Source of the DNA: Liolophura sinensis
Taxonomy: Eukaryota; Mollusca; Polyplacophora; Chitonida; Chitonidae
Length of the DNA stretch: 64,000 nt
NCBI RefSeq assembly: GCF_032854445.1
Contig: NC_088306.1
Span: 22,169,764 to 22,233,763 of the forward strand
Reading direction: 5' to 3'
Each line of letters opens with the position of its first letter. Position 1 is the stretch's first letter. Shown here one piece after another: positions 7,301 to 43,890 of the stretch. The notes under the pieces were generated by a model that was given only the letters and a program-made list of their open reading frames with translations, did not search any database and had not been told where the DNA came from. Made by a program: the position numbers and the translations under genes.

Positions 7301-10300
7301 AAGCGGTTAATTGACCCGGAAAACCGCTGCCTACCTTCTTGTGCTTATACATGTGTACATGTTTCTACCTGTCTGTATCTATGCACCCATAGCTTTGTGT
7401 GCTAAAGCTGTCTGTCTGCTGACTACTTCAGGATGTATATATGTGTGTGTATATATATATATACGCGTAGTTTCAGATGCCAGGTATTTTTATCAGCCGT
7501 TTTTAGTGGGTGTGTTTTGAGAATTAAACGAGGAAGCGTCTTATAGCTTTTACAAGGCAAGGCGATGCCGTCTTGCACACATCCTATTTTTAAATTTGTT
7601 TTTCAGGTCAAGCAGAAGGTTGTCTTAGAACTGAGTGTTTTTTGGGGAGAGCCAACTCTAAAATTACAACCACAGCTATTGAGGAAGCTCTGTATTTTGC
7701 AGTGGCTTGAGCCTCCTACATGAACATGTGTAAATAATCTACGAAATATTTACCTATTGTGTGAAGTAAGGAATTTCCCCTGGATATAGCTTCCTATGAA
7801 CTGGGTGGGGTGGTAAACTTGATTACAGACAGATTGCGAGTTCTCCAAACTAGACTATATTGACCGTGTTTTTTAACCCCTAACTATGGGATTTTTTCAG
7901 AGGAGTGTTTTCAATGGAGATGACGGCAAGCACACGGGTAGAAATAACTTCACCGGGGCTGGCACCAGGAACCGTCAAGGTAAGTCAGTTGTGGCACCGC
8001 CTGATGTCCTGTGTCTTAACTTTGTTCATACTGTAACATTCCATGGTTGCCCTGAAATAACCAGGAGTGGTTTAAAAGCAGGCATGTGTATGCCTGTGCC
8101 TTAGGCTGTTGTGTGAAGCAGTCATTTGTTTGCGCCTCACACACGACAGCATAAGCTGAACACATTCGTCGTCATGGTAAATGCACTTCACACAACACTT
8201 GAACAACTGTGTAAAAACAGGCCCCCCGTTCCTCTAAAGGCAGAAAGAGCAAGAGCAATTGGTCATGGTGAAACCTCTGATTTTTTCACATTGATTCGCT
8301 GATATGAAAGGACAGATGAACTCAACCGTTTTTTTTTGTTTGTTTTCTGCCTTTCTTGGCAGCCCATTCTGATTATGTAAAAATATGATTTATTTGTATG
8401 GCAGGAATTCTGTGGTTGTTCACATGGAAGCAGATATTATGTAGAGCTAAATGAAGAAGGGTTTGTGTGTATGGAAGTATGTGTCGGTCAGAGTACTATC
8501 CCCTGGCCTGTGTACTGCTGTCAGTCTTCCGTGTAACTGTCATATCTGTTATCATTTACAGTGAAGGGGAAATAACTAAATCTTTTGTAATAAAAAGACC
8601 AGTAAAAATTATATTCAGAAGTGCCTTTGGTTATTTTCTTACATTTTTTTTTGTACTGAATTAAAAGCAGTTAAATTCTTGAATTACAGCATGGGGTATA
8701 TGTGCACTAAATACTTTTGCAACACTTTTGTCACTCCAAACTTAGTTTTTAATGTTGATCTACATGTAGCTCCTTGATGTGCTTGAAATCCTGTGTTATA
8801 TACAAGTAAAATGCAGGGACAATTTGTTCCAAAAGTCATGAAAGTGAAACTGGAAGTATAAGACCCCGGTGCTGCCTCACTGACATTCATCAATATCATT
8901 ATGGTTCCTCCCACCATATTGCTGGCTGCCATTGTATAAGTGAAATATTAAATATCATTATGGTCCGTGAGAGCGGTACATTGTTGAATGGTTAAAATAT
9001 TTGGTCTTTCAGCCACCAAGACTAGCAAAGTGCAGGTTCAATCCTGGCCTTTGACAGGGGATTTTTTGTTTATCCCTCCTGCTGTGACTATTCATGGAAC
9101 CATGATGTGGTTGACGACGCATATGTGGGCACATTCTATAATTTTTTGAAGACTACTTGTCTGTCCCCAAAGTGGTGTTCATATCTGCACAGGCCTCATT
9201 GAAAAGTTTGTCAGTAGACTGCTAAAAAATTGGTGGTTTATCCCCGGGCACTGTCGCTTTCCTGCTCCATCAATAATACTGACTACCGTCGTAGTAGTCA
9301 AAACTTTTTCAGTATGACATTAAACAACAGTCAGATATAGCAGTAAATCAATATCATTATGGCCTGCATTGCCCACCCTACATTACTGATGATACACTTT
9401 TTGCTGTTGTCACAGTGTTGACATCAGACGCTATCAAGATGCTGGAGGATTACAAGGATGGTAATCCTAACTACACCATCCGACGTCAGCAGGAGCACGC
9501 CAGGGAGGAGATTGAACAGCTGGACATGCTACGCAATGTAAATATCGCAAAGATAATATTAACAGATACATGAAGCATTTTGTTCCCGTTCCTTGGTATA
9601 TGTATGTAGTTCAGGGATGTGTCCTGACGTGTAAATGTGCAACAGAAATTCTCAGTCTTGTTTTTGGGATAGGTAAAAATGGCTTTAAACTTGTTTTTCA
9701 CATTTTCGAAAAATTCCAAACTTTTATGGAAAATATGTGTATGATAAAGGAGTAATTTTAAGACATAAAATTCCCCCTAAATCTTTTGGGCATAATTTTT
9801 TTTTTTTCCCCACATGAATTAAACCATAATTTTCATTTTGGATGAAGATTTTTCATGGATTCTTTAAGCAGTGACATGTTTTAATCTGACAAGATGTTGT
9901 TACACCAGCTTGTGATGAGTGAATCTTGCACTGTGGCACAGTGACCATGATGGCACAGTGACCATGATGGCACCGTGACCATGATGGCACCATCCTCTGC
10001 ATATGGTCTGTTTAATCAAGGTCTTTCCTATAGTTGGTGAATTGTCAAACTTTGATGCATGGCTTTGCTCTAGTTGGCAAAATCGGAATGGTGTGATTTT
10101 GGCCAGGGTTGAATTTAGTTCACTGTAATAAGTGCATATGGAAGTGAAACTCCCATGTACAAGTAGAAGATTTTGACAATGGGAAAAGTGCTGGACTTGA
10201 AGTGACATTGTGGTACTGATTATCCCGAAAGATCTCGTAACTTGATTGCTTTTCTGACTCACTCCTCTTAGGATATACGTGTGGATTTGTTTCCACAGCT

Positions 10301-13300
10301 CAGATTAGCTGAAGCGGTGGTAACTGAGTGGACAACGTGCTTGTGTTCCGATTTCTGGGTGATGCACCCATGGGGTGGGTTCAGTCTTATCCTCAGTGCA
10401 CACAGATTTTACCCAATTCCTGCTGGTTTGATTTTTAACCTGATGTTTTTGGTGAAAACCATTATGGTCTTCCATGAAGTTTTCTGAAAATCACTTGCCA
10501 TGCACCAGTGTGAAGTGGTGTCAGAAGTGGCAGTTTGTACTAACTTGGGTGTCAGAAGTGGCAGTTTGTACTAAACTGGGTGTCAGAAGTGGCAGTTTGT
10601 ACTAAACTGACTAAGCTTGTATCTAGGTAAACTAAGTTTACTTGAAGAAACTCCAGCCATTAAATTGACCTTCTACATGTAAAATTTCAATGGCAGTAAA
10701 AACAATTAAATGAATAAAGAAATAAAATACATTTACTCGTTACAGTGGAATAACTTTGACTGACTTGTTGTTTTTTTTTTTGTTTTTTTTGTTTTTGCCT
10801 TACAGCACATTGAATCTCGACTCAAGGTGAAACTCCCGGACAACCTGTCTGACGCTTTACGGGATGGGGTTGTACTCTGTCACTTAGCCAATCAGATTCG
10901 GCCGCGATCCGTGGCCAGTATTCATGTCCCTTCCCCTGCTGTGGTGAGTTTGTAAACCAGATTATATTTAAAGGATATATGGAATGCTCGGTTTTATTTC
11001 TATTTAGTATCTATTTCAGGATGTGGTGTAACGTATAAAATACAAAAGTGCTCCTTGGCTTTCTTCTTGAGATGTAATAATGGCTTCAAACTACAAATTT
11101 CCTAATGTCCCAGCACTTAGTCCAGAAATCAGGTGAACCACTGTGGTGATGTCAACGATGATGGCTGTCGATGATGATTGATGACATCATTTCCAAATTT
11201 TCTCAACAACGGATGGAAAAAATGCATAAAATGCAGAGGTTATTAAGAAATAGAAAATATGCCTCCAAAAAAAATTTTTTTTTGCATACTTTTCTACATT
11301 TTCCTTTATTTTAAAATACCTTTTCACATGTCATGGCTAAACTTTTATCAGGGTGAAGGTTTACTCTCATATTTATTTTTTCCCGCTTTACAAAGTTACA
11401 CATCCAAAGCTTTGTAGCCTATTGTTTGTCCCTGTCTGTCTGATGACATTTTGTGATCAAACTGTTCAAGTATTATTCATGCCGCGGTGTTCTATTCAAC
11501 TTTGTCCCAAAGCACCACTGAGCAGGAACAGGTACTCCCATGTGTGATGTCCATGTCGGGTGTCTGCAGATTTGCCAGTGAGGCACTATATGTGAAATGT
11601 GATCCTAGGTAAAAACGTACGTTCAGGTGCAAAAATGTTGTAGGGATGACAGCCATATCCTTAAGCAGGGAATTCTGATCACAGATATATATTATCATTT
11701 ATGCCTTGTGTCTTTCTTCAGTTCATGCTGGCTTCCTCGTGTGTGGGAAAGTCTGCCACCAATCTGCTAATGGTTGTGGGTTTTCCCCCGGCTGTCTCCA
11801 GTTTCCTTCCACGATGATGTCGCAAATAATTAATTTCCTTCAAGCAAAGTTATTTAACTTTAAACCATCGATTCTGAATAGTTTGAATTATGATATCTCT
11901 TCTGTGTATGGCTCGCTAGCAGTTTTGATGTCACTTTTGTGTGTGCATTGTTTAAAGTTGATTGCCGTTCTCTTTTTTACAGCCAAAACTTACACTAGCA
12001 AAATGCCGCCGCAATGTTGAAAACTTTCTCGAGGCATGTCGGAAGATAGGCGTCGGCAACGTAAGTACAAAAGTGAAGTTCACACGATGTTGTCATGTTG
12101 ATGGATGTTGTCATTCATGTCTCATACAAAACTATTATTCAGAAGGTGAAAACTTCACTCCATGGGACATTTGCATCGAATAGAGCCTCATTATTCATGG
12201 TTTAGGTTTTAGGGTCAGAGTGCAGTTTATTAAGGTTTGTTCATAATTTTCACAGAGATGACATTGAAACTTTCCAGAGTGAACAGAAGTTCGCACCTCA
12301 TTTGTCAAATGATCGCTGCTGTGATGTAAGACAGATTACTTTTTGAGGCGTAAAAACTATGAGGAGTGTGACTGTGCCCTAAAGTATGCAGTGTGTAGGT
12401 AACTATTTTCTAGTCATAATGTAGAAAGACGTCACATCCTTCAGTGAGAGTTGTAGACATGTCTGGAGATCTCAAATGAAGTCAGTGTTTTTCAGCTTAG
12501 GTAAAATATGCATATTTGATGGAATTTACCTAATCTGTCTTGTTTAACGTGTACATGTACTTCGTTAGTGAATGTTTTATTGCCTTGGAATGGCTTAGAA
12601 TTCAAAAAAATAAAACTTTTATCCTAGGCTTTTTAAATCTGTACGTGAAGTAAAATCTGTCTTTAAAGTAGTTGTTAAGCTTCTTTATGCCAGTTTGACT
12701 TTGAGACTTGTTGTGAGCCATTTTAGAGTTCCCACCTAAGTGCAACTTTTTGGCCATGTACAGTGCCCTTCAGGCTTATGGTATTAAAGTAGTTGTTAAC
12801 CCTCTTTTTGCCAGTTTAACCTTGAAACTTGTTGTGAGCCATTATAGAGGTCCCACCTAAGTGCAACTTTTTGGCCACGTACAGTGCCCTTCAGGCTTAT
12901 GGTATTAAAGTAGTTGTCAACCCTCTTTTTGCCAGTTTAACCTTGAAACTTGTTGTGAGCCGTTTTAGAGGTCCCACCTAAGTGCAACTTTTTGGCCATG
13001 TACAGTGCCCTTCAGGCTGTATGGTATTAAAGTAGTTGTCAACCCTCTTTTTGCCAGTTTAACCTTGAAACTTGTTGTGAGCCATTATAGAGGTCCCACC
13101 TAAGTGCAACTTCCTTTTTAAAAGAGGTACCTCAAAGGAGGTAATTTGGTGCAATCATATTGTCTTAGTTATCAGATGGGATGATTGGTTGATGGTTAGT
13201 TTCTGTTGTAATTGGCTACATTTTTTATATAAACTCCATGATAATGGTTCACAAAGGTTTGTTTCTTGTGCTCTGCTCACCCAAACCATGTATTGTATGT

Positions 13301-16300
13301 GGAAATACTCATACTAGTTTGATAGCAGTCAGCAATATTGCTAGTAAAGAAATCTCACTTCAGTGTATTATGCATGCAGGTCATAAGACAAGTGTAACTC
13401 CTGAAGCAGCTCCAAATTTGGATAACATTTATGAAGTTTGATCATTGATATATAGTTGTACAAGTTATATGTTATGGTATGTGCTATTAGCTGTGTATGG
13501 ATTTGTCTTCCTGGATTTGTTCACCGTCGCTCGAGACATTTTTTGTCATAACTGATGTAGTTTTCTTAGCGTGTGAAGGTACCGATACACATACAAATGT
13601 CTGTGCATTAGCAGATGTTGGGAAGATTTTCCAGCGTCAGAAGGGGCCATAGTGAACATCAGCACTCATAGGGAGACTATATCTGACTGCTGTGTGACAG
13701 TATAACTAACTTCTGACTGGAAAATGGCTGTTGTATGGCTGTCAGGTCTCTGAGGACCAGACTGGCTAATTCTCTTTGGTACAGACACAGTTTGTTTTGG
13801 GCTTGTCCTGAGTGCTGCCTGGTTGCTAATTGAACAGGGGAATCATGGTAGCTGTATTGCAGTGCCAGTGTGATATGTGATCAGTAAAATGTCAAACCAG
13901 GCTGTGCTAGCCTAGTATTGATGGATGGAATACATGGTATTTACATTTGTGTGTGCAGGTCAAAATCAGCATTTCCAGGTGATGGTTCAGCTCTTTTTTT
14001 TTTGTAACATGGAAATTGTTACCACTGCAGTGGTAAATGAAAATGGTACTTGTTACTGCTTTAACAGCGTTCAGCACTGAGAGGTTAGAAAATGACTGGT
14101 CAGCTCAGTGTTGGTATAATGTGACTGGGTGGGGTGTCATATTTGGTGTCTTTGGCATGGTGGTGGCAGCGCTTTGGTGGCGTGTATATGTACAGTATAC
14201 AATATATGTGCATACTCCAAATGACTCCTCATTGTCACATGGCTGAGTAATTGTTAAGTATGATGTAAAACCTCAAGCATACATACATGTACATAAAGGG
14301 AAATTGTACATTCCTGTGATCATGTCAGTGTTCATGCTCTGTCCAGTTTCCTCCCACCATAATGCTGGCCGCCGTCGTATAAGTGGACTTATGCTTGAGT
14401 ATGGCGTAAAACACCAATCAGATAAATAAATCAATGTCCCTGGGCCCTTGATCAAGAACATAAGCTGTCAGTAGGGCCATTAATACTAGACACTGGTCCT
14501 TGTCATCTTTAATAAATTTGGAACAAAGATTGGAACATGTTCAGGTTGAGCAAATTTCATTGGAAGATCTGCGAAAGAACCATGCGATGCCTTTCTGAGT
14601 GTATCTTGGTTTTATGTGTTTTTTTAATAGCTTATGCAGGATGTTTTTAGCCATGTACAGTGCCCTTGAGGCTGTATTGTGTGCTGGTTAACACATTAAC
14701 AGGCCGGTGATTTATTCTTAGCACTGTCCCCCCCCACCCCCACCCCCCCTCATAAGCCTGTATCTGCATAACCGACTTCCATTGTAAATGTGAAATACAC
14801 TAAGGCCAATCAAATGAATGAATAAATTTATAACCTAGGTAGACCTAGCTCAGTTGGTTAGCGTGCTAGTGCAGCATAATGACCCAGGAGCCTCTCGCCA
14901 ATGCGGTAGCTGTGAGTTCAAGTCCAGCTCATGCTGGCTTCCTCTCCGGCTATACGTGGGAAGGTCTGTCAGCAAACTGTGGATAGTCGTGGGTTTCCCC
15001 CGGGCTCTGCCCGGTTTCCACCCAACATAATGCTGGTCGCCATCATATGAGTGAAATATTCAACACCAATCAAATAAATATATAAATAATCTCTTAGACC
15101 TATGTATGAATGGAACAAAGGGTGACTCGGAAATACATGAAATATACGAGAGGAAACAGCTAGTGTGGTCATAGTGTATGTGAAGGTAGAGCTTTATATG
15201 ACTGTTAGAAAATGTCTGAGTATTATATAACTATGACGATTATAGTAGATAAACGACATCTATAAATAAATGGTTTCCTTTACGTGAGCACAGTTGGCTT
15301 GTCATGTTTACTGTTTTACAGCTTCACATTACACAGGCTATTTGTTAAGGTAATACCATACTCTGTGATATAGCCAGAGGTATAACGCAGCCTTTAGTCC
15401 AGCATAATGAGGACCTGTTCATTCCAAGGCTGATTTGATCTGTAACACACACGCTAATTATGTAACTTGGCATTTGTACGTGAATACAACCAGAATCTTC
15501 TAACCTTTACATCTAATAAATATTAAACAAACTGCTCAGTCCTATACGCAGAAAAGCTCAGTTTTTAGCCCACATTTTAATACAAGTGAGAACTTTTTTG
15601 TGTACTATAGACATACATCTACATTTGGAGGCCTCCGTGGCCTAGTGGTCAGTGTGGTAGCGCAGCACAGTGACCCTGGAACCTCTCACCCTTGCGTTCA
15701 CTGTGAGTCTAGCTCATGCTGGCTTTCTCTCAGGCTGCACGTGGTGGCTGGTTTGGTTTCCTCCCACCATAATGCTGGCCGCTGTTCTAGAAGTGAAATA
15801 TTCTTGAGTACAGTGTAAAATTTCAATCAGACGTAATACGCAGTTTTCAAGGTATGCCATTATGACGACAGAATGACGTCCTGGTGCAAAATGACGTCAC
15901 CACTTTACGGCACAGTAGGGCTACTTGCCTATCTTTCAACATGGCAGTGATGGTGGTTAGATCAAAGTACTGGCAGAACATTTTTTGCGCAATATTGGGA
16001 ACGCAAATTCACCCCTGAACACAATTCAGAAGATTGTTCTAGTCCTTTCAGTTAGTTCTCCATATTATATATGCCACCCCATGTTAAAATTACCAGATTG
16101 GCCCTACTGTGCCGTAAAGTAACGACGTCACACTGTTGTCGTAACTTCATATCTCAAAACATGCGTATTGTGTGTGAATGATAATATTTTCATACAAGTT
16201 ACATGGACCCAGGAGCCTCTCACCAATACAGTCGCTGTGAGTTCAAGACCAGCTCTTGGTGGCTTTCTTTCCGGCTATACTTGGGAAGATCTGTCAACAA

Positions 16301-19300
16301 CCTGCTGATGGTCATGGGTTTCCCCCAGGCTATGCCCCCACCATAATGGGTGGTTTTCCCCCACCATAATGCTGGCAGCCGTCATATAAGTGAAGTCAAA
16401 TACGGCGTAAAACACCAATCAAATAAATAAAATACAAGTTACATGTACCAATGATGTAGTGCTGAAATCAGTTAACATTTAACAGGCAACTTCGACCTGA
16501 AGGTTGCAGAGCTAGTAATCAACTCACACATCATTCGTGCATCATAGACTTCTGAAGAGAATAATAATTTTTTAGTACTGCCCCACATGGTGTTTTACTT
16601 TCAGCCATGAATTCTCTTCATTGTGGACCTGTGCCATGTTGGCACATGTTCCATTAAGAATAGAATGTAATGCTTTATTTCACCTGCATACGGTGAGGTT
16701 AATATGATGGTCTTATCCAATCAGCTGAAGTACATGTATATACCTGTAGTTGATCACTGCTAATATAGAATGATATCTACCATTATCCGCAACACACCAA
16801 CAGTCTTCATGCATACCCCTGCATTATTAACCAATATAACATACCCGCTTTACATATGTGCATGCTACACATGTATGCTGTATAGATTCTCTGCTGTTAT
16901 GTGTAAATTTGCTGCTACTACAATTAATTAACTTCAATTTTAACCAACCTATTAACTGATTGGATATTTCTTGTGTTTAATGTTTCAATAGCAGTAATCT
17001 TTGTCAGTGTATATAATAGCTTGCTTGTGGAGGTTGTTGTAACATACAGTGTAGCTCTGGTTAGCTTACATTTACAGGAAAGGAAACCATAGTGTGGTGA
17101 AGAATTCAAGTAGACTTCATGAAGACTCTTGATGAAAATTCCAGAAGTGTAGAACTTTTAGATGTAAAATTTTAGAAGTGTAAGAAGTGTGTGAAGGAAA
17201 TTTCTAAAAAAAACAACATTTTGTTGTAAGTATGTGAAAGTGTTCTAATGTAAAATTTAAAAAGTGTAATAAGTCTTATTTGGTGTAAAACTCTGAAAGG
17301 GTTAAAACTGTAATTGTATGATGTAAAATTTCAGTAAGGTCTGAAGATGTTTCATAAAAAATTTTGGGAGGAAAAGTAAAAAGAGATAGTGGGTGATTAA
17401 AGGAGATTAGAAGATTAAGCTCAAAGCATGGCAGAATTTATTTCAAATGAATATTATTTTTGAAGTTTGACTTAATTGGAGTTACTACTATTACTTACTG
17501 AATGAGTACATGTTGTCAGGTATTTGTGTTTAGGGCTGTCTGAATGGCTGTAGCCTGGTTGTGACGTGCTTCCGTTTGGTCTCTCGTTGCAGGAGGCCTT
17601 GTGTGCATGTGACGACGTTGTGGAAGCATTACGTCCCTCCCGCGTGGCCCAAACTGTCCGCCATTTAGTCCAATTCCCGCGACTAACCGCTGCCGATTAC
17701 GCCATTGCCAACCTCTGTCTGCTTCTATTTATAGCCACTTGTGTCTTCCTCTGTGCTAGACCACCTACACTCCACTAACCTCTTAACCAATCAGCTGCCT
17801 TTAACCAAGTCACCTGACAGGTCACATGTCTGAGCGAACTAATCAAAGGAAAACTTTCAAGTTTAAGCATATGCAAATGAAGTGTGATTCCCATGAACCC
17901 CTGAGGACCAGATTCTATAAACCAGTTGGCTAACAGGTCACATGACTACCCCAACAAATCCAGGAGAGTGGTGCTCACTACAAGCCAACATACGTCTTGA
18001 AACTTATCACTGAATGAGAAACTTTGTGACTTGTTGACTGCCGAGTGTTGAAAAACTCTTATGCTGAAAGAAAATGAGACTGAATCTCCTTGCTCAAAGC
18101 ATGCGTGATATATTATGAATGCAAACTTGATCTAGCCAGTGGATGTTTACCAGCTTTGTATTTTGAACATGTAGCATGTCTAGTGTTTGGCTAAGTTATA
18201 TCCTCTTGCATGTTTGATTAATATGGATCAATATTCTGTGTGTACACATAGTAGTTACACAAATTCAAGACAAGCCGAAGAGAGTTCAGTCTATATTTGG
18301 GTCTTGCGTAACGTGTTGTAAATTATGTCACTTCTCTGGCTTGGCCCTCAGCATAATGAGGTAGTCTCCAAGGACTGGTAATCTAAGTGTCCGTATACTG
18401 TGTCAGACTATGTTTGATGCTGTGTTACATGCAAGACTAGGTACAGGGGACTGGCTATAGCTACAAGGAATACTATATTGACATTCCTCAAAATCACACC
18501 ATAGTGGCTAGCGTGCTAGCGCAGCACAATGACCCAGAGACCTCTTACCTCAGCCACCTCAGACTGGCTTCCTCTCAGGTCGGGAATGTCTTGCAGCAAC
18601 CTGCGAATGACCGTGGTTTTGTTACATTTCCTTTCCACATAAAGCTGGCTGCTGTTTTTTAAGTGAAATTAGCATAAAACTCCAATCAGAGAAATAATGT
18701 ATAATGAAATCAAAAGCAAACAGACAAACTAGTTATTATGTATGTGTGGAGTCTACCAGCTGTCAGACAATGTTACAATCATGTTGAGACGGCCATTAGC
18801 TGTCATCTTTGGTGGCATTTACACAGGGTATTAGAAATATGCAAGTAATTTGCGTTACCTCAAACATGCATTTATGCTGATAAGAAAAACAGGGTTTTAT
18901 GTTGATGACTTTGGTATTTGACGTAAATTTACAGCTGAGACATGTCTGCAGATGTGTAGTAGACACACAAAGGCACAGACTAAGGTGTTCTGTGAACATG
19001 GTAAAATGTTTGTGATTCATTTCAGGTCATGAAATGGGTAAGCTTTTGATCATATCAGAACACATGTTAACTGTAATGGTCTTATTACATGTAATGTCTC
19101 CTGAATGATCCATTAGAAGCAGTTGTATGTGTAGAGCAATGATGTTGCTTCTGACCAACTCCTAACAATACACAGCTTTCAGCAGTGACAATCAGGAAAT
19201 TCACCCATTTTGAGGCAACGAATGAGCTTCAACTCCATGGGTACAATATTATGTGCTATTCTTCATAAACAGTGCACTTGTACCCATGTACAATTATTTC

Positions 19301-22300
19301 ATTGACAAAAAAGATTGTCATTACCCGTAATTGATTGTATTATCTAATATGTTATGTATTATTTTATCAGAGCAGAATGGGCTCACAAAAATACATTTAC
19401 GTGTGTATTGTCCATGTTTCTTTGTCTTTGTGGCGTAATAGTGCATGTGAAAAAAGGGAAGGATTGAAGGATTATATTGCGTATATGCACTGTAATTATT
19501 TAACCTTTTCGCATGTTTCCAGGGTGTTTACTCAGGAAAATTCGGAAGGCATTATTCTGTGATGACTTATGAAATTATACTTTTCATGAAGCCCTCAAAC
19601 TGGGTAATCCACCCAATGTAGTTTTGGCTCCAAAGTCAAATTACAAACGTGCATAAATTGCACTGAAATTTGCTTTTTTTTTTATATGCAAAAGGGTTGA
19701 GGAATTAGAGTATGTTGAAGAAGTAAGGTGATAGATGTTGGTGTAAGAGGCAGTTGTGTAAGCTGTAATAGATGTAGGTGTGGAAAACCTTTACAGTTCC
19801 AATGTGTGAAAGCTTCCTTTAACTGTGCCTGTATGTATTACTGTGTGTGTGTATAAAGGGTTGACTAAGAACTGTACTGTGGACGGCAATTGGGACCATA
19901 AAGAAAGTTTTGGGGTACTTCATATCATGAATGAACTGTATGTGTACCTGGAATGAAGGCAAATAAGGGGACTCTATAAGCCCTGTATGCATATACATGT
20001 ATGCAGGCTGGTGGGCCAGTTTTATGAAATGTGGCGTGACTTATTATATATTACATTATTCAGCGTAGCTTCAGGCCAAATCTGAAATGACCTGCTACCT
20101 GTTTCATCGAACCTGCTACCGTTTTCATCCGACCTGCTACCTTTTTCATCCGACCTGCTACCTTTTTCATCCGACCTGGTACATATTTGCAAACACTGAT
20201 TTCACAGGAGTATGCTTATATTCCCTAAATGCTCATTTGAAGGTGCTTTAATTTCAGTACTTACAGTACTTTTTATTCTCAAAGTTTTGCTGCAGGAAAT
20301 TTTTTTTTGTAACACTGACAAAAGAGTACTTTTCCAGAGTACTTTTTTCAAAACTGTTTTGAATTGAAAGTTTGAGTTTCAAGCCATTTCGTCTACTTTC
20401 GACAGAGTTATGGCCAGTTTTGGTCCGTGACAGTTTTCGGGGCTTTCTTCTTCAAAACACATTCTGTTGAATTGGTCAGGAATTTCCTGTTTTTGGACAA
20501 TTCTTTCAAATCAGTTCTTCATATTGAATTGAAACTTTTCAGATTAACCTATAGTTTTGTGTCTTTCAATTTATGGCTCTTTCTGTTCTGTTTTGGACAC
20601 TTGTTTGTAAATAATTTGTCATAATAGAATTGAAACTTGGTACATGGCTACACTATCATAACTTACACAGTTCAAGTTCGAATTTCATGCCATTTGGTTT
20701 ATTTTCTTTAAAATTATGGCTGCATCTTTTCCCCTGTTTGTGGACTTCTTTTTAAGCAGTTCCAAACGGAACAAAAAGGCTTGAATTGATTGGAACATGA
20801 AATTGTATAAGAATGTTTTAATTTTGAAGCTCTGTGTGATCGCTAGACTTATGTGATAGATATATTAATGTGCCCGTAGTTTTGCTCAAGAGGTGCCAAG
20901 TTTTAAAAGTGAAGTATATTTTATTTTAAGTTAAGGCATTTGTGACGAGGGAATGTACAGGATAAATTTTTCACCTGAAAAACGTTGCAACAGGTGTAAC
21001 GTTAAGATGTCCATGTACCAGGAAGTTGTGGTTTTATGACAAGTTAATACCATTTTTCCAATTTTCATGATAGCTGAATCTGTTAAAGGTCTGATAATGC
21101 ACAGGGAATTTAAATAATTTAAGTTTAATACGTTATTCCTTTGCATGCATAGTACGTGTCATATAAGGTTTGCGAAAATGTAGTTCACACTGAAGCCGTT
21201 ATAGTACTATAGTATTGTATTATTCATAATAAAATATGTAAATGCGTATTTATAATGTGATTGCTGCATGCTATGCTAGGTGACTGGCATACTGAAGGGA
21301 GTATAAAGAGAGGCTGGTGTCCTGTTGAAATCCTCACATTCCATCAGAACAGTGATGTAATGAATCAAGGGGAAAAGTTATGAAAAATAACAATGAAAAC
21401 AGAAAAATAAATGAACAGAAAAAGAGCATATGATGACAATAGAGAGAGAACTACTTACAAAGTGTGCTGTATTTATGATATACATAATGATAAATTTATG
21501 TCCAATTTGTTTCTAATGATTTTTATGTGATAAAATGTAGTTTGAAGCTGCATTTATATTAATTTTGATGTAAAATTACCTCTGATAACTCCATGCAGAC
21601 ATGTAATACAGTAGCATTGCTGACGTATTAGCTATGGTGAAATGTAACGGCAGACATGCAGCACATTACATTTATCATGTTTGCGGACATTTAGAAGAAT
21701 TAACTGATCAGCAAATATACCAAGTTATCTGTTACGGATTTACTGTTTTATTTATCTGAAAATGTGGAATTCTTTCCTTGTCGAATTTTTAGTTTATCTG
21801 GTTCAGAGAGGACCAGTGAGCATTGCGTCATGTGAAAGGTTCGTACATGTAGGTGAAATGCACTAAAAGTGTGTTTAAAGTCGAACTGCATGTGGGAAAG
21901 CTTTGTCAGCAGATTGATTAAGTCAGGTGGTTTTCGCTTAAGGCACTCTGGTTTTCTCCACCCTTAAAACTAATAATCATCGTATTGAGTGAAAAATCTT
22001 AGAGTATGGCATTCAACAAATATCATACAGTTAAGTAAAATAGGCTTAAAGCGTTGATGAATGATTGGCTGAAAAGTAAACATACACTGTAAATAAAGAT
22101 TGTTTTGTTCGGAGCAGTGTACGAATAAGTTCCAGACATTTAACTCGATTGAACGATAATTTAATTGGATTGAACGATAATTGTTCAGTTCGGACAATCA
22201 CTGTTTTTGTGATTATGTGGCAGATTTACAGCTAGAGCATGAATTAGAAGCCTGTTTTCTTAAAACACTTGCGTGTAGTTAACAGGATATATTCCAACAC

Positions 22301-25300
22301 GGCAAGAGTCAACAGCTGTCAACAAAACAGGCATCCCCCACTGGTCAGGACAGCACTCTACTGTAAATGGTGGAAATGACGTAATTTACCCATTACATAG
22401 CTGCACATTTTGCTTGAATCTGAACTGAAAGTTTGTTAACCTGAGAATGGTGTCTGAAGGTTTGGTTTGATGATATTATAGACCTACCAGGGGGAAAATG
22501 TTTAAAAGTTCAAGCAACAAAGGTACTTTTTTGTAATACTTATTTGCCTCTAAAAATGCTCTTTTATTAACCATATTTAAAGATACATTTATGAAGCTGG
22601 TTTGCTCCACGTCTTCCAAGAATGGAAAAATGAAAACAAAACAAAACAAACAAAAAATAACGGTTACAGTATGTATTCAATCCAAATAGTGAAATGCTTT
22701 CTAATTATGTAAATTTGTGCCATTTCATTACTAGGTAAGAAATCATTTACTTTTTTTTTTGTCAAAGAAATTTAGAATTTTAGTCTTGCTTTGTTTACTT
22801 TTATGTGTTCTTAATGATCAGATTAAGTGTAGAAGAAAAAAGATGCTTAAACCAATAGTCAAATAAATAAACTGATAGAGTTTGATTTTACAGATAATTG
22901 GATTGTAAAATAACATAAAGAAGTTTTATTTTTTCTCTAGGTGTTTATGTTCGTGATATTACCTGAAGCATTTAATATTCCAGTTTATATTTTATCTTGT
23001 TAAAAAATAAATTTTAGCCTCTTGTTTATTTATTTTTTTTTTATCTATATTTTTTTACTAATGCCAAAGGTTTTTGGTGAAATCTTATTTTTTTATTTGC
23101 ATTATGATTCTCAAACTGTTCAAAATACTCAGTGTAATGTTATGTCATGTACGTAGGTACATGTTGAGGTCTGTCATGTTTGATTCTTACTTTCCAGTTT
23201 GTTGCATTAATTATTTTTGCATTAATTAGTAATTTATCATGTGAGATAAGAATTTGATTGCATGGGTTATGGAAAAAGAGACCATTGAAAAGCCATGCTT
23301 GATAAGATGTTCATGGTATATTTTGTGTGTTTTGGCCACTGTACTTCTAATATAATGCAGAAGGGCATTGCCACAATTCGTTAGAAATATGGAAGATCAC
23401 TATGCCATGACTATAGAAAGTGCATTTCGCATACCACAATGTGGAAATTGAGAATTTTTTTTTCCAGTACATGTATGTTGAATTTAAAATTGTATATTTT
23501 GTTTGTTAAATAATAATTAATTTTTCATTTGAACAACACAAAATACTGAATTCTCAGAGACTTGAGGTTTACAGTAAAACAATATGCATGTACATCTCAG
23601 TTTTTAAATGTATACTTTTCAGATGTAGTTGCAGTGTACTTATTGGTCAACAATTTTGTTATGCAAAGTGCAAAAATCTCCAGTTATATATGACGTTCAT
23701 ATAGAACAGGAAAGGCACATGACAACTGCGATGGTGATAAATTTGCCAAATATAACCTGAGTACAAACTTTCGTGGTTTTTCTAGCAAGAAAGATATGAA
23801 AGAATTTACGTGGAACAGTAATCCCTTGGATGGGTGAGAGCTCCATAAATGGTTAAATACTTCATTGAAAAGCCACTTTCATTATAGCCTCTGATATTTT
23901 AGTATCCACTCTTCTGAATCGTGGATTTGAATGGTGAATTTTGGGTATTAATAATGCTATAGTATTACTATACTGTGCTGTGTTGAAGTCTCAGGCGACA
24001 AAGAGCCACACTGTGGTTGTTGCTGTCACAAGCTGTATTGTAGTCCATGGCAACAAATACTAAAGTCTGCTGTGTGCTGTACAGTTGGGCAGTCTTGTTC
24101 TGTGTTCAAATTTTAGGCAACGATACTATGCTCATAATTAAATTGGCTAGGTTGAAGTCTCCTGTAAGAAATGTAAATATGTGTAGCTTTTACTCTAGTG
24201 TGTTACAGGCAGGCTATGTTGTATTATGTTGAAGTCTCAGGCAACAAAGTACTCTGCCACACACTGTATTGTGCTGTGGTGAAGCTGATGTTGACGTCAC
24301 AGGCAACAGATAATGATATTCAGTACTCTGTCTCAAACTATATTGGGCTGTGATGAAGTCTCTTGAAAAACAAAATACAAATAGCTACACTCTGATGTGT
24401 TTACAGTTTGACAATATTGTGATGTGGTGTAGTCTCAAGCTACGTGCTCAAGGCTAGACTGTGTTTTGGTGAAGTCACAGGTTATATTATTGTTGCAGCC
24501 TCAAGCAAGTAACCTGTTCTTTTCATTTTGTTGCAGCCTTTGGCAATAAAGAGCTGCATTGTGCGTTTTTATGTAGTCTTAGGCAACAAAGAACTATTCT
24601 GTAGTCTGTTGCACACTAAGGTTGTGTTGTGGTTTGTTGCAGTCTGAGGCAACAGGGGGCTAACTGACTATTCACAAGCGCTTGCAAGATGATCATATGT
24701 TATTATATGTATGATTAAATCATGTTACTTTGCTGTATACATGTAGCTGTAAATGGTTTATAAAGGCATATTCCGTGAACTGGTTATGGTTTACAGTAAT
24801 ACCACACTATAGCCACTGTACCAGATAGATGGAGTGTTCATTGTGATATTTTCATTGTGATACCTGAATTCTGTAAAAATTTGTGCATTTATTTCAGTTT
24901 CAAGTTTGCATGTATTCTCTGCAACACACAGATTTGTTTTCTTGTACAATCCAAATTCTAAATATAAATACTTGTTATATTGAGCTTTAATGCTTCAGGC
25001 TGATAATAAATTTATTGAAAGAACAGGACTGTTGTACCTTGTATTACTTGTGTCTGTTAGTCATTTTATATTGAACCAGAAACTGCATGTCATTGGCTTG
25101 GGGTCAATTTCAAGACTTCAGTTCCTTGTTGGTTTTGGAAGTTATCTTAATATTTTTTAAGAATTGTTTTGTGATACCATCTTCCTTTATTCCTGAAGAG
25201 TATATGAGACTCAGTACCTGTACTTCACTGACATTTATGTATAAGCTCGCCTTACAAAGCAAGGAGAGGTATTGTGAGAGGGGGATGAGATACTGTCTGT

Positions 25301-26616
25301 GGCGGTGGCAGTGTCCAATCTGGTTAAAGTTTAGGCCAATCATAAGGTTGCAGTGACCACACATCGTACACAGATAGCTAATCGATAATGATTTACATCA
25401 GCAGGGAGAGGTATTGTGAGAGGGGGATGAGATACTGTCTGTGGCGGTGGCAGTGTCCAGTCTGGTTAAAGTTTAGGCCAATCATAAGGTTGCAGTGACC
25501 ACACATCGTGCACAGATAGCTAATCGATAATGATTTACATCAGCAGGGAGAGGTATTGTGAGAGGGGGATGAGATACTGTCTGTGGCGGTGGCAGTGTCC
25601 AGTCTGGTTAAAGTTTTAGGCCAATCATAAGGTTGTAGTGACCACACATCGTACACTGATAGCCAATCGATAATGATTTACATCAGGGATTTGGACCAAG
25701 GAAGTCTTTTACCTCATAGCTCAATATATTGTTCAGGTGTTCATAAAGTTGTAGTTGCCTCCCATTGTACATGGATTGCCAAATGCGGTTCACGATTTGT
25801 GTATCGAAGACCTCTGTGGTAAAGTTGAGCCCTGACTCCCCAGGGTGGCTTTACCACCACAGTGATTTACAACTCCATAACATACGAAGTCACAGCTTGG
25901 CAAGCTTTATTCATACGATAAACAGTCATAGTTGTGACAGTCTAATAATATTGGTATTTCTTGTTGATTTGATGGCAAGATCTTAACACTACATAATTAG
26001 ATGATAATATCTTTCTTTGACACTGTCAGTCATTCTACTTTTTTTTGGGTTTAGAAGTCAATATTTGAATGTATCACATGACTCGATCATTACCAATCAG
26101 ACGAGCTATGTTGTTGTGTGAATATGTGTCCGATTCCCAAGATGGAAATCTAATTAAAACACTAAAATAAGTGTCATATAAAGACCATGATTACAACAAT
26201 GCATTACAATTTGAAATTTTAAAACAATAAGTATTTTACAGTTTGTAAGATTGTAAATTTTTACACACAAGTAAATCATGAAATAGGATAATCACCTGTA
26301 TTGTTTAGAGTTTTAGCAGAGTGAGGCAACGAAATGTCTTGAAATATTGTGGGGCCTTTAGAGATAAATATAGCTCTCAGAATGAAAAAAAAAATGTTTA
26401 ACTTTCGGCCATTTATAATTGACACAAAAATGTTAAAATTAATACACTTTTTAAAGTAGCAAAAAATAACAAGAGCATTTGTTTTTTTTCTATATATTTC
26501 AGGAACAGATCTGTTCAGCTCACGACATTTTGGAGGAGAAAGGAATCTTACGTCTGGTGATAACTGTGGGCTCATTGGTAGCCATTTCCACCAATCCCAA
26601 ACAGTCCGCAGTCTGA
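1230..26616 (+). CDS. LRCH: LRCH family protein (leucine-rich repeat and calponin-homology domain), 3' part, spliced
   Basis: Spliced gene entering the window from the left, so the N-terminal leucine-rich repeats are not seen. Coding exons I support: 1230-1361, 2049-2358, about 3677-3856, 7901-7979, 9416-9537, 10806-10943, 11983-12060, then either 17593-17778 or 26503-26616. Wherever I can fix both ends the phases join correctly. In order the protein shows a basic Ser/Thr-rich linker, a charged helical stretch, a predicted helix with EQAREEIEQL-like character (ARETVLNF, then AREEIEQLDMLRN), and a single CH domain at the C-terminus with the family hallmarks DALRDGVVLCHLANQIRPRS and AKCRRNVENFLEACRKIGV. 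LRCH proteins are cytoskeleton- or membrane-associated scaffolds: fly and human members act with septin/actin and DOCK proteins, and vertebrate LRCH4 is membrane-anchored (established knowledge). Family assignment is strong. One splice boundary (the acceptor near 3677) is uncertain and an extra small exon between 2358 and 7901 cannot be excluded. Confidence 0.9.
1550..1785 (+). repeat. Type-1 SINE, nearly complete, in LRCH intron
   Basis: Has the type-1 order: GCGCAATGACCCAGGA, box-B-like GAGTTCAAGTCCAGCTCA, GGAAGGTCTTCCAGCAACCT, GTATAAGTAAAATATTCTTG and an A-rich end. The box-A portion is lost. Confidence 0.8.
2049..2358 (+). CDS. LRCH: LRCH exon: low-complexity Ser/Thr/Pro/Arg linker
   Basis: Acceptor ACCGCAG, donor GGTAAGT, 310 nt, phase 2 in and phase 0 out. 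The frame opens GVSEEKVKSAGPSPASS and is then rich in Thr, Ser, Ala and Arg (TTNTTTKARSTTSTIASRSR) with net positive charge, so it is probably disordered. The exon is more GC-rich than its introns. The opposite strand is also open over most of this exon, but that is a composition artefact. Confidence 0.75.
3677..3856 (+). CDS. LRCH: LRCH exon: charged helical (coiled-coil-like) segment
   Basis: The frame reads SENERFVLKEEEFRMRHEAV, then a Gln/Arg/Glu-rich stretch (LRQRLEDEKNKILQAQKEAA) ending RETVLNFISK before the donor GTGGGA. Its heptad-like charge pattern suggests a long helix or short coiled coil just N-terminal to the CH region. The 3' end is clear. The 5' end is not: several AGs (3660, 3668, 3672, 3676, 3680) occur in the CAGTCAGTGAGTCAG run. 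Only the one at 3676 gives phase 0 with the preceding exon, and it is a weak GAG acceptor. A different acceptor plus an unseen small exon is possible. Confidence 0.7.
7901..7979 (+). CDS. LRCH: LRCH exon: short linker exon
   Basis: A 79-nt exon with a good acceptor (GGGATTTTTTCAG) and donor (AAGGTAAGT). It encodes RSVFNGDDGKHTGRNNFTGA and GTRNRQ, phase 0 in and phase 1 out. Its length is not a multiple of three and its end phase fits the next exon, so it should be constitutive when included as read. No domain. Confidence 0.65.
8905..9345 (+). repeat. SINE fragments, one tRNA-headed and diverged
   Basis: A type-1 tail (CCTCCCACCATATTGCTGGC, GTATAAGTGAAATATT) at 8905-8955 is followed from about 8965 by a diverged element with a box-B-like GGTTCAATCCTGG and an end near 9345 (CTGACTACCGTCGTAGTAGT). 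Related end sequence recurs near 40570 and, weakly, near 34630. Confidence 0.55.
9416..9537 (+). CDS. LRCH: LRCH exon: helix preceding the CH domain
   Basis: Acceptor TTGTCACAG, donor GTAAAT, phase 1 in and phase 0 out. It encodes VLTSDAIKMLEDYKDGNPNY then TIRRQQEHAREEIEQLDMLR and N. The YTIRRQ...AREEIEQL stretch is a conserved LRCH element directly before the CH domain. Well supported. Confidence 0.88.
9941..9993 (+). repeat. 17-bp minisatellite, 3 copies
   Basis: GTGACCATGATGGCACA-type units start at 9941, 9958 and 9975, inside an LRCH intron. Confidence 0.85.
10517..10609 (+). repeat. 31-bp tandem repeat, 3 copies
   Basis: Units starting GGTGTCAGAAGTGGCAGTTT begin at 10517, 10548 and 10579, just upstream of the first CH exon. 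Confidence 0.88.
10806..10943 (+). CDS. LRCH: LRCH exon: first half of the calponin-homology domain
   Basis: Acceptor preceded by a long T-rich tract (TTTTTGCCTTACAG), donor GTGAGT, exactly 46 codons, phase 0 at both ends. It reads HIESRLKVKLPDNLSDALRD, then GVVLCHLANQIRPRSVASIH and VPSPAV. The DGVVLCxLAN core is the signature of type-3-like CH domains in the LRCH family. Single CH domains of this kind are usually scaffolding modules rather than strong actin binders (known for the family). Confidence 0.93.
11717..11830 (+). repeat. Type-1 SINE fragment, diverged
   Basis: Recognisable by CAGTTCATGCTGGCTTCCTC, GTGGGAAAGTCTGCC and TTTCCTTCCACGATGATG. Lies about 150 bp before a CH-domain exon. 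Confidence 0.65.
11983..12060 (+). CDS. LRCH: LRCH exon: central CH-domain helix, last common exon
   Basis: 26 codons, phase 0 at both ends, acceptor CTCTTTTTTACAG and donor GTAAGT. It reads PKLTLAKCRRNVENFLEACR then KIGVGN. Both downstream terminal exons begin in phase 0 (GAG and GAA), so either can follow it directly. Confidence 0.93.
12663..13115 (+). repeat. 121-bp tandem repeat, about 3.7 copies
   Basis: TTAAAGTAGTTGT starts at 12663, 12784, 12905 and 13027. Each unit carries CCACCTAAGTGCAACTTTTT and GTACAGTGCCCTTCAGGCT. A stray piece of the same unit lies at about 14647-14678 (CCATGTACAGTGCCCTTGAG). Confidence 0.92.
14055..14285 (+). repeat. Type-2 SINE, head-truncated
   Basis: Shows the type-2 body (CAGCACTGAGAGGTTAGAAA, GTATAATGTGACTGGGTGGG, TTTGGTGTCTTTGGCATGG) and the type-2 end GTTAAGTATGATGTAAAACC TCAAGCA. 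A 69-codon ORF over it is repeat sequence. Confidence 0.8.
14335..14435 (+). repeat. Type-1 SINE 3' fragment
   Basis: TTTCCTCCCACCATAATGCT, GCCGTCGTATAAGTG and GGCGTAAAACACCAATCAGA with AAATAAAT end. Sits directly after the type-2 SINE. Confidence 0.8.
14841..15090 (+). repeat. Type-1 SINE, full length
   Basis: Begins with the box-A-like GACCTAGCTCAGTTGGTTAG, has box-B-like TGAGTTCAAGTCCAGCTCAT, the body GGAAGGTCTGTCAGCAA and an AAATAAATAT-type end. Part of the usual tail (TTGAGTACGGCG) is deleted. Confidence 0.88.
15627..15835 (+). repeat. Type-1 SINE with internal deletion
   Basis: The head GCCTCCGTGGCCTAGTGGTC is a good tRNA box A. The centre (the GGAAGGTCTGTCAGCAACCT part) is missing and the tail GCTGTTCTAGAAGTGAAATA remains. 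Confidence 0.85.
15836..16168. mobile_element. MITE-like palindromic element with CRE-like motifs in its arms
   Basis: The arms at 15836-15925 and about 16095-16168 are inverted copies: ATACGCAGTTTTCAAGG against the complement of CTCAAAACATGCGTAT, then matched ACGACAnnnnTGACGTC and CTTTACGGCACAGTAGGGC blocks. About 170 bp lie between the arms and no coding frame is seen. It abuts the tail of the SINE to its left. No clear target-site duplication beyond a possible TA. Confidence 0.75.
16200..16435 (+). repeat. Type-1 SINE, head-truncated
   Basis: Starts at GACCCAGGAGCCTCTCACCA and runs to GGCGTAAAACACCAATCAAA TAAATAAA. A short segment (CCACCATAATGG) near 16335 is locally duplicated. Confidence 0.85.
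17593..17778 (+). CDS. LRCH: LRCH alternative terminal exon A: CH end plus membrane-anchor-like C-terminus
   Basis: Acceptor TCTCGTTGCAG, 61 codons then TAA. It encodes EALCACDDVVEALRPSRVAQ then TVRHLVQFPRLTAADYA, followed by a hydrophobic run INLCLLLFIATCVFLCAR-like (actual: AIANLCLLLFIATCVFLCAR) and PPTLH. The hydrophobic run of about 17-18 residues flanked by Asp/Tyr before and Arg after looks like a C-terminal single-pass or tail anchor. Vertebrate LRCH3/LRCH4 isoforms also end in a membrane segment (established), which supports this being real. The first AATAAA I see downstream is at about 21228. Confidence 0.88.
   Translation, partial: EALCACDDVVEALRPSRVAQTVRHLVQFPRLTAADYAIANLCLLLFIATCVFLCARPPTLH
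18505..18705 (+). repeat. Type-1 SINE, strongly diverged
   Basis: GGCTAGCGTGCTAGCGCAGC, ATGACCCAGAGACCTCTTAC and a decayed tail (AGCATAAAACTCCAATCAGA). Confidence 0.65.
20090..20185 (+). repeat. 21-bp minisatellite, about 5 copies
   Basis: ACCTGCTACCTTTTTCATCC-type units start at 20090, 20111, 20132, 20153 and 20174. Confidence 0.88.
21228..21233 (+). terminator. Candidate poly(A) signal for the exon-A isoform
   Basis: The first AATAAA I find after the exon-A stop codon, about 3.4 kb downstream. Position only. Confidence 0.2.
21895..22050 (+). repeat. Diverged SINE fragment
   Basis: TGGGAAAGCTTTGTCAGCAG, CTCTGGTTTTCTCCACCC and AGAGTATGGCATTCAACAAA keep the order of the SINE bodies elsewhere in the window at low identity. 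Confidence 0.45.
23980..24660 (+). repeat. Degenerate long-unit repeat in LRCH intron
   Basis: The words GAAGTCTCAGGC(A/G)ACAAAG and GCTGTGTTG/GCTGTGGTGAAG recur about every 100-130 bp in diverged form. It looks like an old tandem array. Confidence 0.5.
25262..25687 (+). repeat. 142-bp tandem repeat, 3 copies
   Basis: GAGAGGTATTGTGAGAGGGG starts at about 25264, 25406 and 25548. The copies are nearly identical, which implies recent expansion. It lies about 0.8 kb before terminal exon B. ORFs over it are repeat artefacts. Confidence 0.93.
26503..26616 (+). CDS. LRCH: LRCH alternative terminal exon B: CH end, no membrane segment
   Basis: A long T-rich tract and TATATATTTCAG acceptor, 37 codons then TGA. 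It encodes EQICSAHDILEEKGILRLVI then TVGSLVAISTNPKQSAV. The (E)xICxxxDILEEKG pattern is the classical CH-domain end of LRCH1/LRCH3-type proteins, followed by a short polar tail. It lies 8.7 kb beyond terminal exon A and also starts in phase 0. Confidence 0.9.
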   Translation, partial: EQICSAHDILEEKGILRLVITVGSLVAISTNPKQSAV

Positions 26617-29459
26617 CTAGTGTGGGCGGAGCTGCTAGGGGGCGTGGCCTCCATTATCATCATGTTTGTTCTTTTGGTGACAGCCTCAGAACACATGGGG
26701 CTTAATCCTTACTGGTGACCCATGGCAACACAGGTGTAGCGCATTTCTACCTTCAAAGAGTGAAGAGCTTCAAGAAAATATGCTTTCTGACATATTGTAC
26801 CTCCAAGTGCAAAAGATCTACAAGTTCTACAAAATCTATCTCCCGAGCCTGAAGAGCAACTAGGAAGTTGTACCTCCCAGAACAGAAATTCTACTGGCAA
26901 GAGTTCAGACACCACTGTGTCCACTTTGTTAATCAGAAGAGGTGCACTGTACAATTATTTTTGGGGAAAAAATGTGATAATCATGCAAGATTACTTAGAG
27001 AAGTTAGTGCATAAAAATCCTGTGCAGTTACCTTTAACTTTGTTTTAGTTTAAAGTTTTGTTTTTGTATGAAATTTGATTTTTCAAGAAAGGTGAGTACT
27101 CATTAACTCTAACTACTGTCACAAGATCATATCGGCTGTTCGTAAAATGTGCTCTGATATATAGAGGTATTTCTCAACTCACACACATGTTCACTTGATC
27201 AAAATGTTTACTGTAAAAATTATCTGAATGTTGCGAAACTTTCAGAAATGACGCTTGTGTTTTAACCAGTTTGTGAATGCCTCTATTTCTGAAACCGATT
27301 TCCTCTGAAACACTCTGGAACTAAGGAGGGGCCAGCATTTTCAGAGACATATGAAAGTCCCGCACAAAAACTGGTTATTGACAATATTATTTATGTATGC
27401 GCATAATGTTAAGACGTAATAATGAATGATCCTGGTGACGGACCTTGGATTGGAAGTGTCATTGTTTTGAAAACTGTATTGATAAGGCTTGATATAAAGG
27501 TACACAAACCTTTCCTGAAATTGGTGGATTTGTTTGAAAACACAAAATTGGTATTGCTCAGATTTCATCTCTGTTATTGTGAAAGAAGAACCTGGTCGTT
27601 AATCTTTCATTGAATGTTACAAAGGTTTCACGCAAAGGTAAGCGAATATTGCCTTTGCGATATTGTTTTCATATGTTTGTACTAAAAAAAACTGGCACAC
27701 AGAGCAGTTGCCATAAACATTCTTCTTCTTGCTCACAATTAGTCAGATTTTCCAGTGTGTCCATTTAGAATTTGATGCTTAGAGAAAAGCTCATGTTCAA
27801 GACGTAGAGTGCGGTATTAAAGACGGACAATTCCTCTTAAGAATGTGAGCATATCTTTGTGGATATTTTGTGCCAGCTTTGGTAGGTGAAAAACTTGTAT
27901 GCATGCCTTGGTATTTTAATTGTTCACATTCTAACTGGTTGATTTACATGTACTTTATACCTGTACATATATTCACTCTACAGGTGTTGTTTTGTTTAAA
28001 ATATTTGCTGTCTGTTTTATTATTTCTTTTTTTTTTTAGAATTTTGTTTTGAATTTTCTTATTTTTATGTTTTTCTGAGGATATAATGTTGTTGTATAAA
28101 CTGTAAATGTTTATTTGTTTTTATTCCTTTTTTGTTTCCTGTTTTTTTGTGGGTTTATTATTTTTTTTTGCTCTCATCTGATTAAATCCGAGTTAGTTTT
28201 CGTTATGTTAATTTAAATAAAATCATTTTTTTTTCAGCTCTAAAATTGAGTAACCTTTTTTCTGCCTTTATACTGGTAGATTACAGAGTATCTGTTCTAC
28301 ATTTCCACACACTTTAAAAATGAATTTATTCAGCCTCCTGCTTCAAAATGCAACTTACATGTATGTTAAATTCTTTAGCATAGACATTGTTTATTTTCTC
28401 GCTACCTTTCCGCATGTAGCATATGGGCCAACATTATTTTGTAGGATGTTCTAAAACAAACTTACACCACATTTACAGTGTTGAAAACATAGTTCTTAGA
28501 AATTCTTTGACAGTGTTTCTTGGAACTTGGTACTTCTCCCTTTTAATTATGTAATTAGCACCAAAAAAGACCTAATGTAAACCTTTTCTTGCACCACATC
28601 TAGATACATTTATATTAGAATATGAGGTTTTCTTTGGTTATAATTTTGTGAAAATTGATGAAGTTGAGATTTACAGGTACTCATGTAACTTCACCAAAGA
28701 ACACTTTTTAAAATGTATGGACATAAGGTGTTGTTCTGATTACCTTGCTAGACACAGAAGTCTTCTACTAGCCACTTTGAAAGGAGTAAATTTTTTCATC
28801 AACATCTAAGCTGATTAGAATTCACAGTTTTTCCTGTATAGGCCAAATCACAGTCCTAACTCTCTGTTGATTTCTCAAAATTACCAAGACGTAGGAGATA
28901 GCAATGTGTTCAGGACTTCAGGCTTAGGATTACCCCCAGCTGGTTTATGCTGATGTGCTATGTGTGCGACTGGTACTGTGATTTGGCTCATGTCAGACTT
29001 ATATGTTGCCATGGGATACAGAGGTTATACATGATATGATAATTGCAAAGCACAAAGGAACCACAATATTTAGCAGCCCGCCTTGATATTGAGACACCTT
29101 CTTTCATGTGGGTATCACAAAGATGTCTCTCTGTTTCTGGAAAGTTTACCAAAGTGGCGTGAAGTTTTGATCATTCACTCATTTACATGCAAGATGCGGA
29201 TTAAGACTGCTTATTCAGAGATTTTTGAAAATTAAATCTAAATTTTGGCAGGTGTCATTAAACATTAAACATTAAACTCACCGATACAAGGGTACAAAAA
29301 CGTATGCAGTGCTTGACCGTAACATAAATGAGGTTTGTATCAGAGGACTAGAGTAATGTTTCATTTGTACATAAAACCATTGTGTCATCAGAAATACCTG
29401 CAGTGTTAATAACTAAGATGTACGAAGAAAAAATCATGTCAGCTCAAGAACTGAAGTAC
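26617..29459. other. Presumed LRCH 3' UTR, then featureless AT-rich DNA
   Basis: After the exon-B stop there is likely 3' UTR up to the AATAAA at 28216. The rest is AT-rich with T runs and no supportable exon or repeat. Confidence 0.4.
28216..28221 (+). terminator. Candidate poly(A) signal for the exon-B isoform
   Basis: An AATAAA hexamer about 1.6 kb after the stop codon of terminal exon B, followed by T-rich sequence. Position only; AT-rich DNA makes chance hexamers common. Confidence 0.25.
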
Positions 29460-29471
29460 TTGATGCATCAT

Positions 29472-29737
29472 GGGGACCTCCATGGCTCAGGTGGTTAGCA
29501 CGCTAGGGCAGTGTAATGACCCAGGAGCCTCTCACCAATACGGTTGCTGTGAGTTCAAGTCCAGCTCATGCTGGCTTCCTCTCCGGCCATACGTGGGAAG
29601 GTCTACAGCAACCAGCGGATGGTTGTGGGTTTCCACCAGGCTCTGCCCGGTTTCCTCCCACCATAATGCTGGCCGCCGTCGTATGAGTGAAATAATCTTG
29701 AGTACGGCGTAAAACACCAGTCAAATAAAGAAATGAA
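29472..29737 (+). repeat. Type-1 SINE, complete, with 12-bp target-site duplication
   Basis: The element is flanked by the perfect direct repeat TTGATGCATCAT at 29460-29471 and 29738-29749. It has box A (GGCTCAGGTGGTTAGC), box B (GAGTTCAAGTCCAGC), body and the full tail GAGTACGGCGTAAAACACCA. This 266-bp copy is the best reference for the family here. Confidence 0.95.
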
Positions 29738-29749
29738 TTGATGCATCAT

Positions 29750-43573: not shown

Positions 43574-43890
43574 AGTTTCGGCCGACCATGTAAAGCGGGA
43601 AATACACGAGATCTGAGAAAACATACACGGATGTTTTCAAACACTCCCCGCCTGTACCAGAAGTTTGGCCAGACATCGTCAAAATCTCGCCAACATTCGG
43701 TTGGTGTGATCGGCGCAGGCAGAATTGCTTCAAGTGTCCACATACCGAATATTCTAAACAATCACCGGCTACAGCTGCGCTGGATTGTGGAGAACAACCC
43801 GGAAGCGATAAAGCCTTTACAGGACAAGTTGTACCTCGATATCCCATTCTATACCTCAGATCATACAAAATCTCTCCTGGATGACCCAAG
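43574..43890 (+). CDS. Oxidoreductase exon: N-terminus and NAD-binding loop
   Basis: Acceptor CTCTCTCTTCCAG, donor AAGGTATAC, ends in phase 2. It encodes SFGRPCKAGNTRDLRKHTR before MFSNTPRLYQKFGQTSSKSR, then QHSVGVIGAGRIASSVHIPN and on to SLLDDP. If transcription starts within this region the 43631 ATG is the start. If an upstream exon exists the 19 codons before it are coding too. Confidence 0.85.

Follow-up and report, generated by a model that had tools for sequence, protein, structure and literature searches.

The LRCH gene of the chiton Liolophura sinensis, a gene for a scaffold protein of the cytoskeleton, probably encodes two proteins through the use of one or other of two last coding exons, A and B, with the A form tail-anchored and the B form free. 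The exons, their reading frames and splice-site dinucleotides, the homology between A and B, the longer calponin-homology (CH) match that either exon gives and the hydrophobicity of the end of A can all be read directly from the DNA. These last exons lie in a window of 64,000 nucleotides on contig C12 (22,169,764–22,233,763), within the 609 Mb genome; positions below are those of the window unless a contig is named, and the features of the gene are collected in Table 1.

Table 1. Positions of LRCH coding features within the window
Feature	Position	Strand	Description
LRCH exon 5′ of the CH domain	9416–9537	+	Contains NPNYTIRRQQEHAREEIEQLDMLRN; ends assigned by splice-site sequence; frame and flanks read
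CH exon	10806–10943	+	46 codons; begins and ends in phase 0; tblastn E 3e-14 with a human LRCH1 query
Last common CH exon	11983–12060	+	26 codons; phase 0 end before gtaagt; tblastn E 2.5e-8; sole site found genome-wide
Alternative last coding exon A	17593–17778	+	CH domain end, hydrophobic C-terminal segment and stop; follows ttgcag; 61 residues
Codons of the hydrophobic 19-mer	17701–17757	+	AIANLCLLLFIATCVFLCA, then six residues and stop; Kyte-Doolittle mean 2.54
Alternative last coding exon B	26503–26616	+	CH domain end, short polar tail ending KQSAV and stop; follows tttcag; genome-wide match here only

The LRCH gene and its common exons

With a C-terminal CH domain, and an N-terminal leucine-rich repeat (LRR) region upstream on the same strand, the gene has the architecture of the LRCH family. 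The LRR exons lie upstream of the window on the + strand (stretch L011; best tblastn E 1e-14), as does the first exon (stretch L012; E 2e-4), both located with a human LRCH1 query, and LRR and CH exons are presumably joined in one message. The start codon is likely to be the ATG at C12:22,134,625, approximately 35.1 kb 5′ of the window; from there to the last base of exon B the distance is 61.8 kb. Within the window, the same query matched positions 9463–9534 of the exon 5′ of the CH domain with an E of 0.11, which is weak by itself. The last common exon translates as PKLTLAKCRRNVENFLEACRKIGVGN and is 87.5% identical to the human LRCH1 query over 24 residues (tblastn); it conforms to the stretch PKL[ST].AKCRRNVENFL.ACRK, which is typical of the CH domain in this family.

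LRCH appears to be single-copy, since a search of the whole 609 Mb with the last common exon and exon B as query returned two matches, which were those two exons only. This is provisional, as a Pfam CH search of the genome gave 31 matches with the LRCH exons not among them, and single-exon searches here can therefore miss true exons. No LRCH relatives were confirmed among the pattern stretches scanned in viral contigs and genome contigs (84 and 595, respectively), an absence to be expected for an animal gene.

Other features of the window include a downstream gene on the + strand, with GFO/IDH/MocA-type oxidoreductase exons at 43640–43900 and 48544–48834 (Pfam PF01408, 24.2 bits against a cut-off of 24; PF22725, 50 bits against a cut-off of 27). 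Minisatellites precede exon A (12663–13112; period 121, 3.7 copies, 95% matches) and exon B (25258–25686; period 142, 3.0 copies, 97% matches). Across 12061–30000, a dispersed repeat of ~240 bases occurs at 14345–14430, 14852–15087, 15643–15829, 16206–16431, 18502–18698 and 29489–29733, with a core like GGTTTCCTCCCACCATAATGCTGGCCGCCGTC...GCGTAAAACACCAATCAAATAAATAAA; one of the copies follows exon A. The repeat resembles a SINE of a kind known from molluscs. A likeness to pentatricopeptide proteins, raised by a search of solved structures with the common exon plus B, came from two repeat-driven matches only and was rejected as chance.

Two homologous last coding exons

The initial annotation placed the phase 0 end of the last common exon at 12060 and described two further exons downstream, each with an acceptor, a phase 0 start and a stop. 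These coordinates proved correct to the base, and the reading frames and AG sites agree with the description of both exons. A and B are each preceded by a pyrimidine-rich stretch and cag, and both continue in phase 0; exon B translates as EQICSAHDILEEKGILRLVITVGSLVAISTNPKQSAV before its stop, and its tail is short and polar, as had been claimed. Both stand out as G+C-rich islands (A 0.53, B 0.47) in surroundings of 0.29–0.40, as do the neighbouring CH exons, with the G+C content of A set against 0.31 and 0.39 in the ~500 bases on either side.

The first 28 codons of A and B align ungapped from the splice junction, with nine of the 28 residues identical. When B was used as query, exon A scored 36 and ranked first among the remaining 785 AG sites of the + strand after which 28 codons stay open; the next scored 10, the mean of all 786 was −26 (sd 13), and the best of 758 sites on the − strand reached 21. 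The converse query with A placed exon B first, again at 36, with the next site at 8 and the − strand best at 11 of 758. When the 28 aligned residues were shuffled 100,000 times, the alignment score was matched once; when whole exons were shuffled, the local alignment score was reached in 19 and 9 of 20,000 cases. The common part alone has a Pfam CH score of 41.3 bits, and adding A brings it to 47.6, adding B to 48.4 (cut-off 26). In the PDB, chains of calponin and Vav align with the last-exon part of either construct.

As their alignment starts at the junction and both extend the CH match, A and B look like duplicates of the last CH exon that have since diverged, homologous and of the same phase as duplicated exons are, and neither form appears from its sequence to lose the CH domain. 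The pair proposed in the initial annotation, two alternative terminal exons of which one carries a membrane segment, is still the best reading, but A is more than a tail added after the CH domain.

Hydrophobic segment and predicted topology

The hydrophobic tail attributed to exon A is present, with a Kyte-Doolittle mean of 2.54 over its best 19 residues, whereas the best 19-mer of exon B reaches 1.36 and overlaps the CH end. In a control set of AG-started frames of 40–80 codons, 10 of 750 (~1.3%) reached 2.5, so the hydrophobic run alone is modest evidence, and the homology between A and B is the stronger. The end of exon A is nonetheless likely to be a membrane anchor, because the run lies at the end of a coding exon and C-terminal membrane segments are reported for vertebrate LRCH1 and LRCH4 in a review (PMC7536344).

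The segment lies six residues before the stop, the placement of a tail anchor, in a scan that took in the two ends of the protein. The first-exon product, from the likely start codon, reads MATSYAGGQSPTTFSKTLERVF... / MATSYAGGQSPTTFSKTLERVFEDAQ..., and a Kyte-Doolittle scan of this exon found no signal-like stretch (maximum 19-mer mean 0.17). With a C-terminal anchor and a first exon that is not signal-like, the A form would be a tail-anchored protein with its LRR and CH domains in the cytosol, and an outside-facing LRR/CH for this form looks unlikely.

Processing signals and alternative readings of exon A

Of the four acceptors that were scored, the one before exon A is the weakest, with a pyrimidine share of 0.75, a value reached with a pyrimidine before the AG by 2.6% of 3,555 AG sites; that of exon B is better, at 0.8125, which 0.9% of AG sites reach. 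Neither AATAAA nor ATTAAA occurs within 3.4 kb after exon A, the first AATAAA being at 21228, and rarer poly(A) variants are found there, for example TATAAA at 17916; exon B is followed by ATTAAA at 27816 and AATAAA at 28216. From exon A to ~2 kb on, the best donor-like site scores 3.4 (19038, 1.3 kb past the stop), and the two scored donors of the LRCH gene, at 4.1 and 5.5, both lie above it. Past the stop of exon B there are strong donor-like sites at 27092 (score 8.3; 0.5 kb) and 27638 (7.2; 1.0 kb), in a window where 11 of 4,350 GT sites score 6 or more; they perhaps mark an intron within the 3′ UTR.

The weaker acceptor of A and the 3.4 kb without a canonical poly(A) signal would suit a reading in which only B works and A is an old duplicate of the last CH exon, in decay or seldom used, as would the slightly higher Pfam CH score of B (48.4 vs 47.6 bits) and its closer match to a vertebrate soluble LRCH3 tail (12 vs 10 of 26 residues identical). 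This is unlikely, given that A has kept an open frame with a stop, an exon-like G+C content and CH-like residues, and that a hydrophobic segment would be an unexpected gain for a copy in decay. That the hydrophobic end of A is instead a chance feature and no anchor, leaving both forms soluble, draws on the ~1.3% of similar-length AG-started frames that are about as hydrophobic, but the run occupies the extreme C-terminal end of a coding exon, the position reported for the membrane isoforms of vertebrate LRCH1 and LRCH4 (PMC7536344), and we regard this reading as improbable.

The position of A upstream of B, with no canonical poly(A) signal nearby, could also be that of a poison exon, included before B so that messages carrying its stop are degraded and the level of LRCH is set in this way. 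This explanation is very unlikely. That A is an internal exon is countered by the shortage of good donors shortly downstream of it: the site at 19038 falls below the two scored donors of the gene, and GTRAG is absent between 17593 and 18600. A poison exon would, moreover, require neither a CH end nor a membrane segment. Two alternative last exons, one of them encoding a likely membrane anchor, is the reading that we prefer.

Comparison with other LRCH genes

Ungapped comparison with the soluble tail of vertebrate LRCH3 gave 12 of 26 identical residues for exon B and 10 of 26 for exon A, scores that 0 of 20,000 shuffles reached in either case. For the membrane tails of vertebrate LRCH1 and LRCH4, the scores of exon A were reached by 1,703 and 1,594 of 20,000 shuffles, and those of exon B by 390 and 396. 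By these ungapped scores the membrane tails resemble A no more than B, and MAFFT introduces gaps into them; that A is orthologous to these vertebrate tails is therefore not established. With the LRCH1 query, tblastn gave no match to A or B up to an E of 10. An ancient A/B pair shared with vertebrates is thus no more than possible. The human LRCH3 tail ends in SAV, as does the B form (KQSAV, 26599–26613), whose S-x-V terminus makes it a candidate class I PDZ ligand.

The initial annotation held that vertebrate LRCH paralogues differ in having a membrane segment; such differences exist, but the statement is incomplete, as isoforms of single genes differ too according to the review (PMC7536344). 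There, a putative membrane segment is given for two of three human LRCH1 isoforms and for the longest human and mouse LRCH4 isoforms, and the longest isoform of human LRCH3 is predicted to have one. Vertebrate LRCH1, LRCH3 and LRCH4 (PMC7536344) resemble what is proposed for the chiton gene, in that one gene with LRR and CH domains gives products with and without a putative membrane segment at the C-terminus. The review infers that the LRR and CH domains of the membrane forms lie outside the cell, in contrast to the chiton A form, in which the apparent absence of a signal-like segment argues for the cytosol. Skipping of an LRCH3 exon between LRR and CH, described in PMC5481333, is a different event from the choice of a last exon.

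Drosophila dLRCH is likewise a single invertebrate LRCH with N-terminal LRR and C-terminal CH (PMC2923620). The main text of that paper has no occurrence of words beginning isoform, splic or transmembrane, so that it does not discuss a second last exon in such terms. Mutually exclusive exons that arose by tandem duplication (for example PMC9013439) are like A and B in being homologous and of the same phase, with one of them used, as is proposed for A and B, and unlike them in that A and B are both terminal with their own stop and one copy adds a membrane segment. A literature search found nothing on LRCH with an alternative last exon, and LRCH combined with tail-anchored matched a plasmid name only.

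Proposed mechanism and outlook

In the arrangement that we favour, the exon ending at 12060 would be spliced either to A or to B, leaving the LRR and CH parts the same in both products. In the A form, the C-terminal segment would anchor the scaffold at a membrane with LRR and CH facing the cytosol, and the B form would be free, cytosolic or cortical; as both copies carry their own stop, the choice of poly(A) site may take part. The use of both junctions, the insertion of the A form into a membrane, its topology and the function of the pair are what we infer. The pair is of a kind already known from vertebrate LRCH isoforms, and what is new here is its instance in a single gene, the homology between exons A and B, and the topology prediction. 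It is possible, if rather doubtful, that the duplication of the last CH exon is ancient, pre-dating the split between vertebrates and protostomes, and has been kept since, with an anchored form that faces the cytosol, contrary to the outside-facing orientation inferred for vertebrates.

The review (PMC7536344) counts among the open questions what distinguishes LRCH forms that have the membrane segment from those that lack it, and which membrane is their site of action. In the chiton gene, each form would be tied to its own last exon, so that each could be removed separately, and with no signal-like stretch apparent at the N-terminus, the orientation of the anchored form becomes a simple test.
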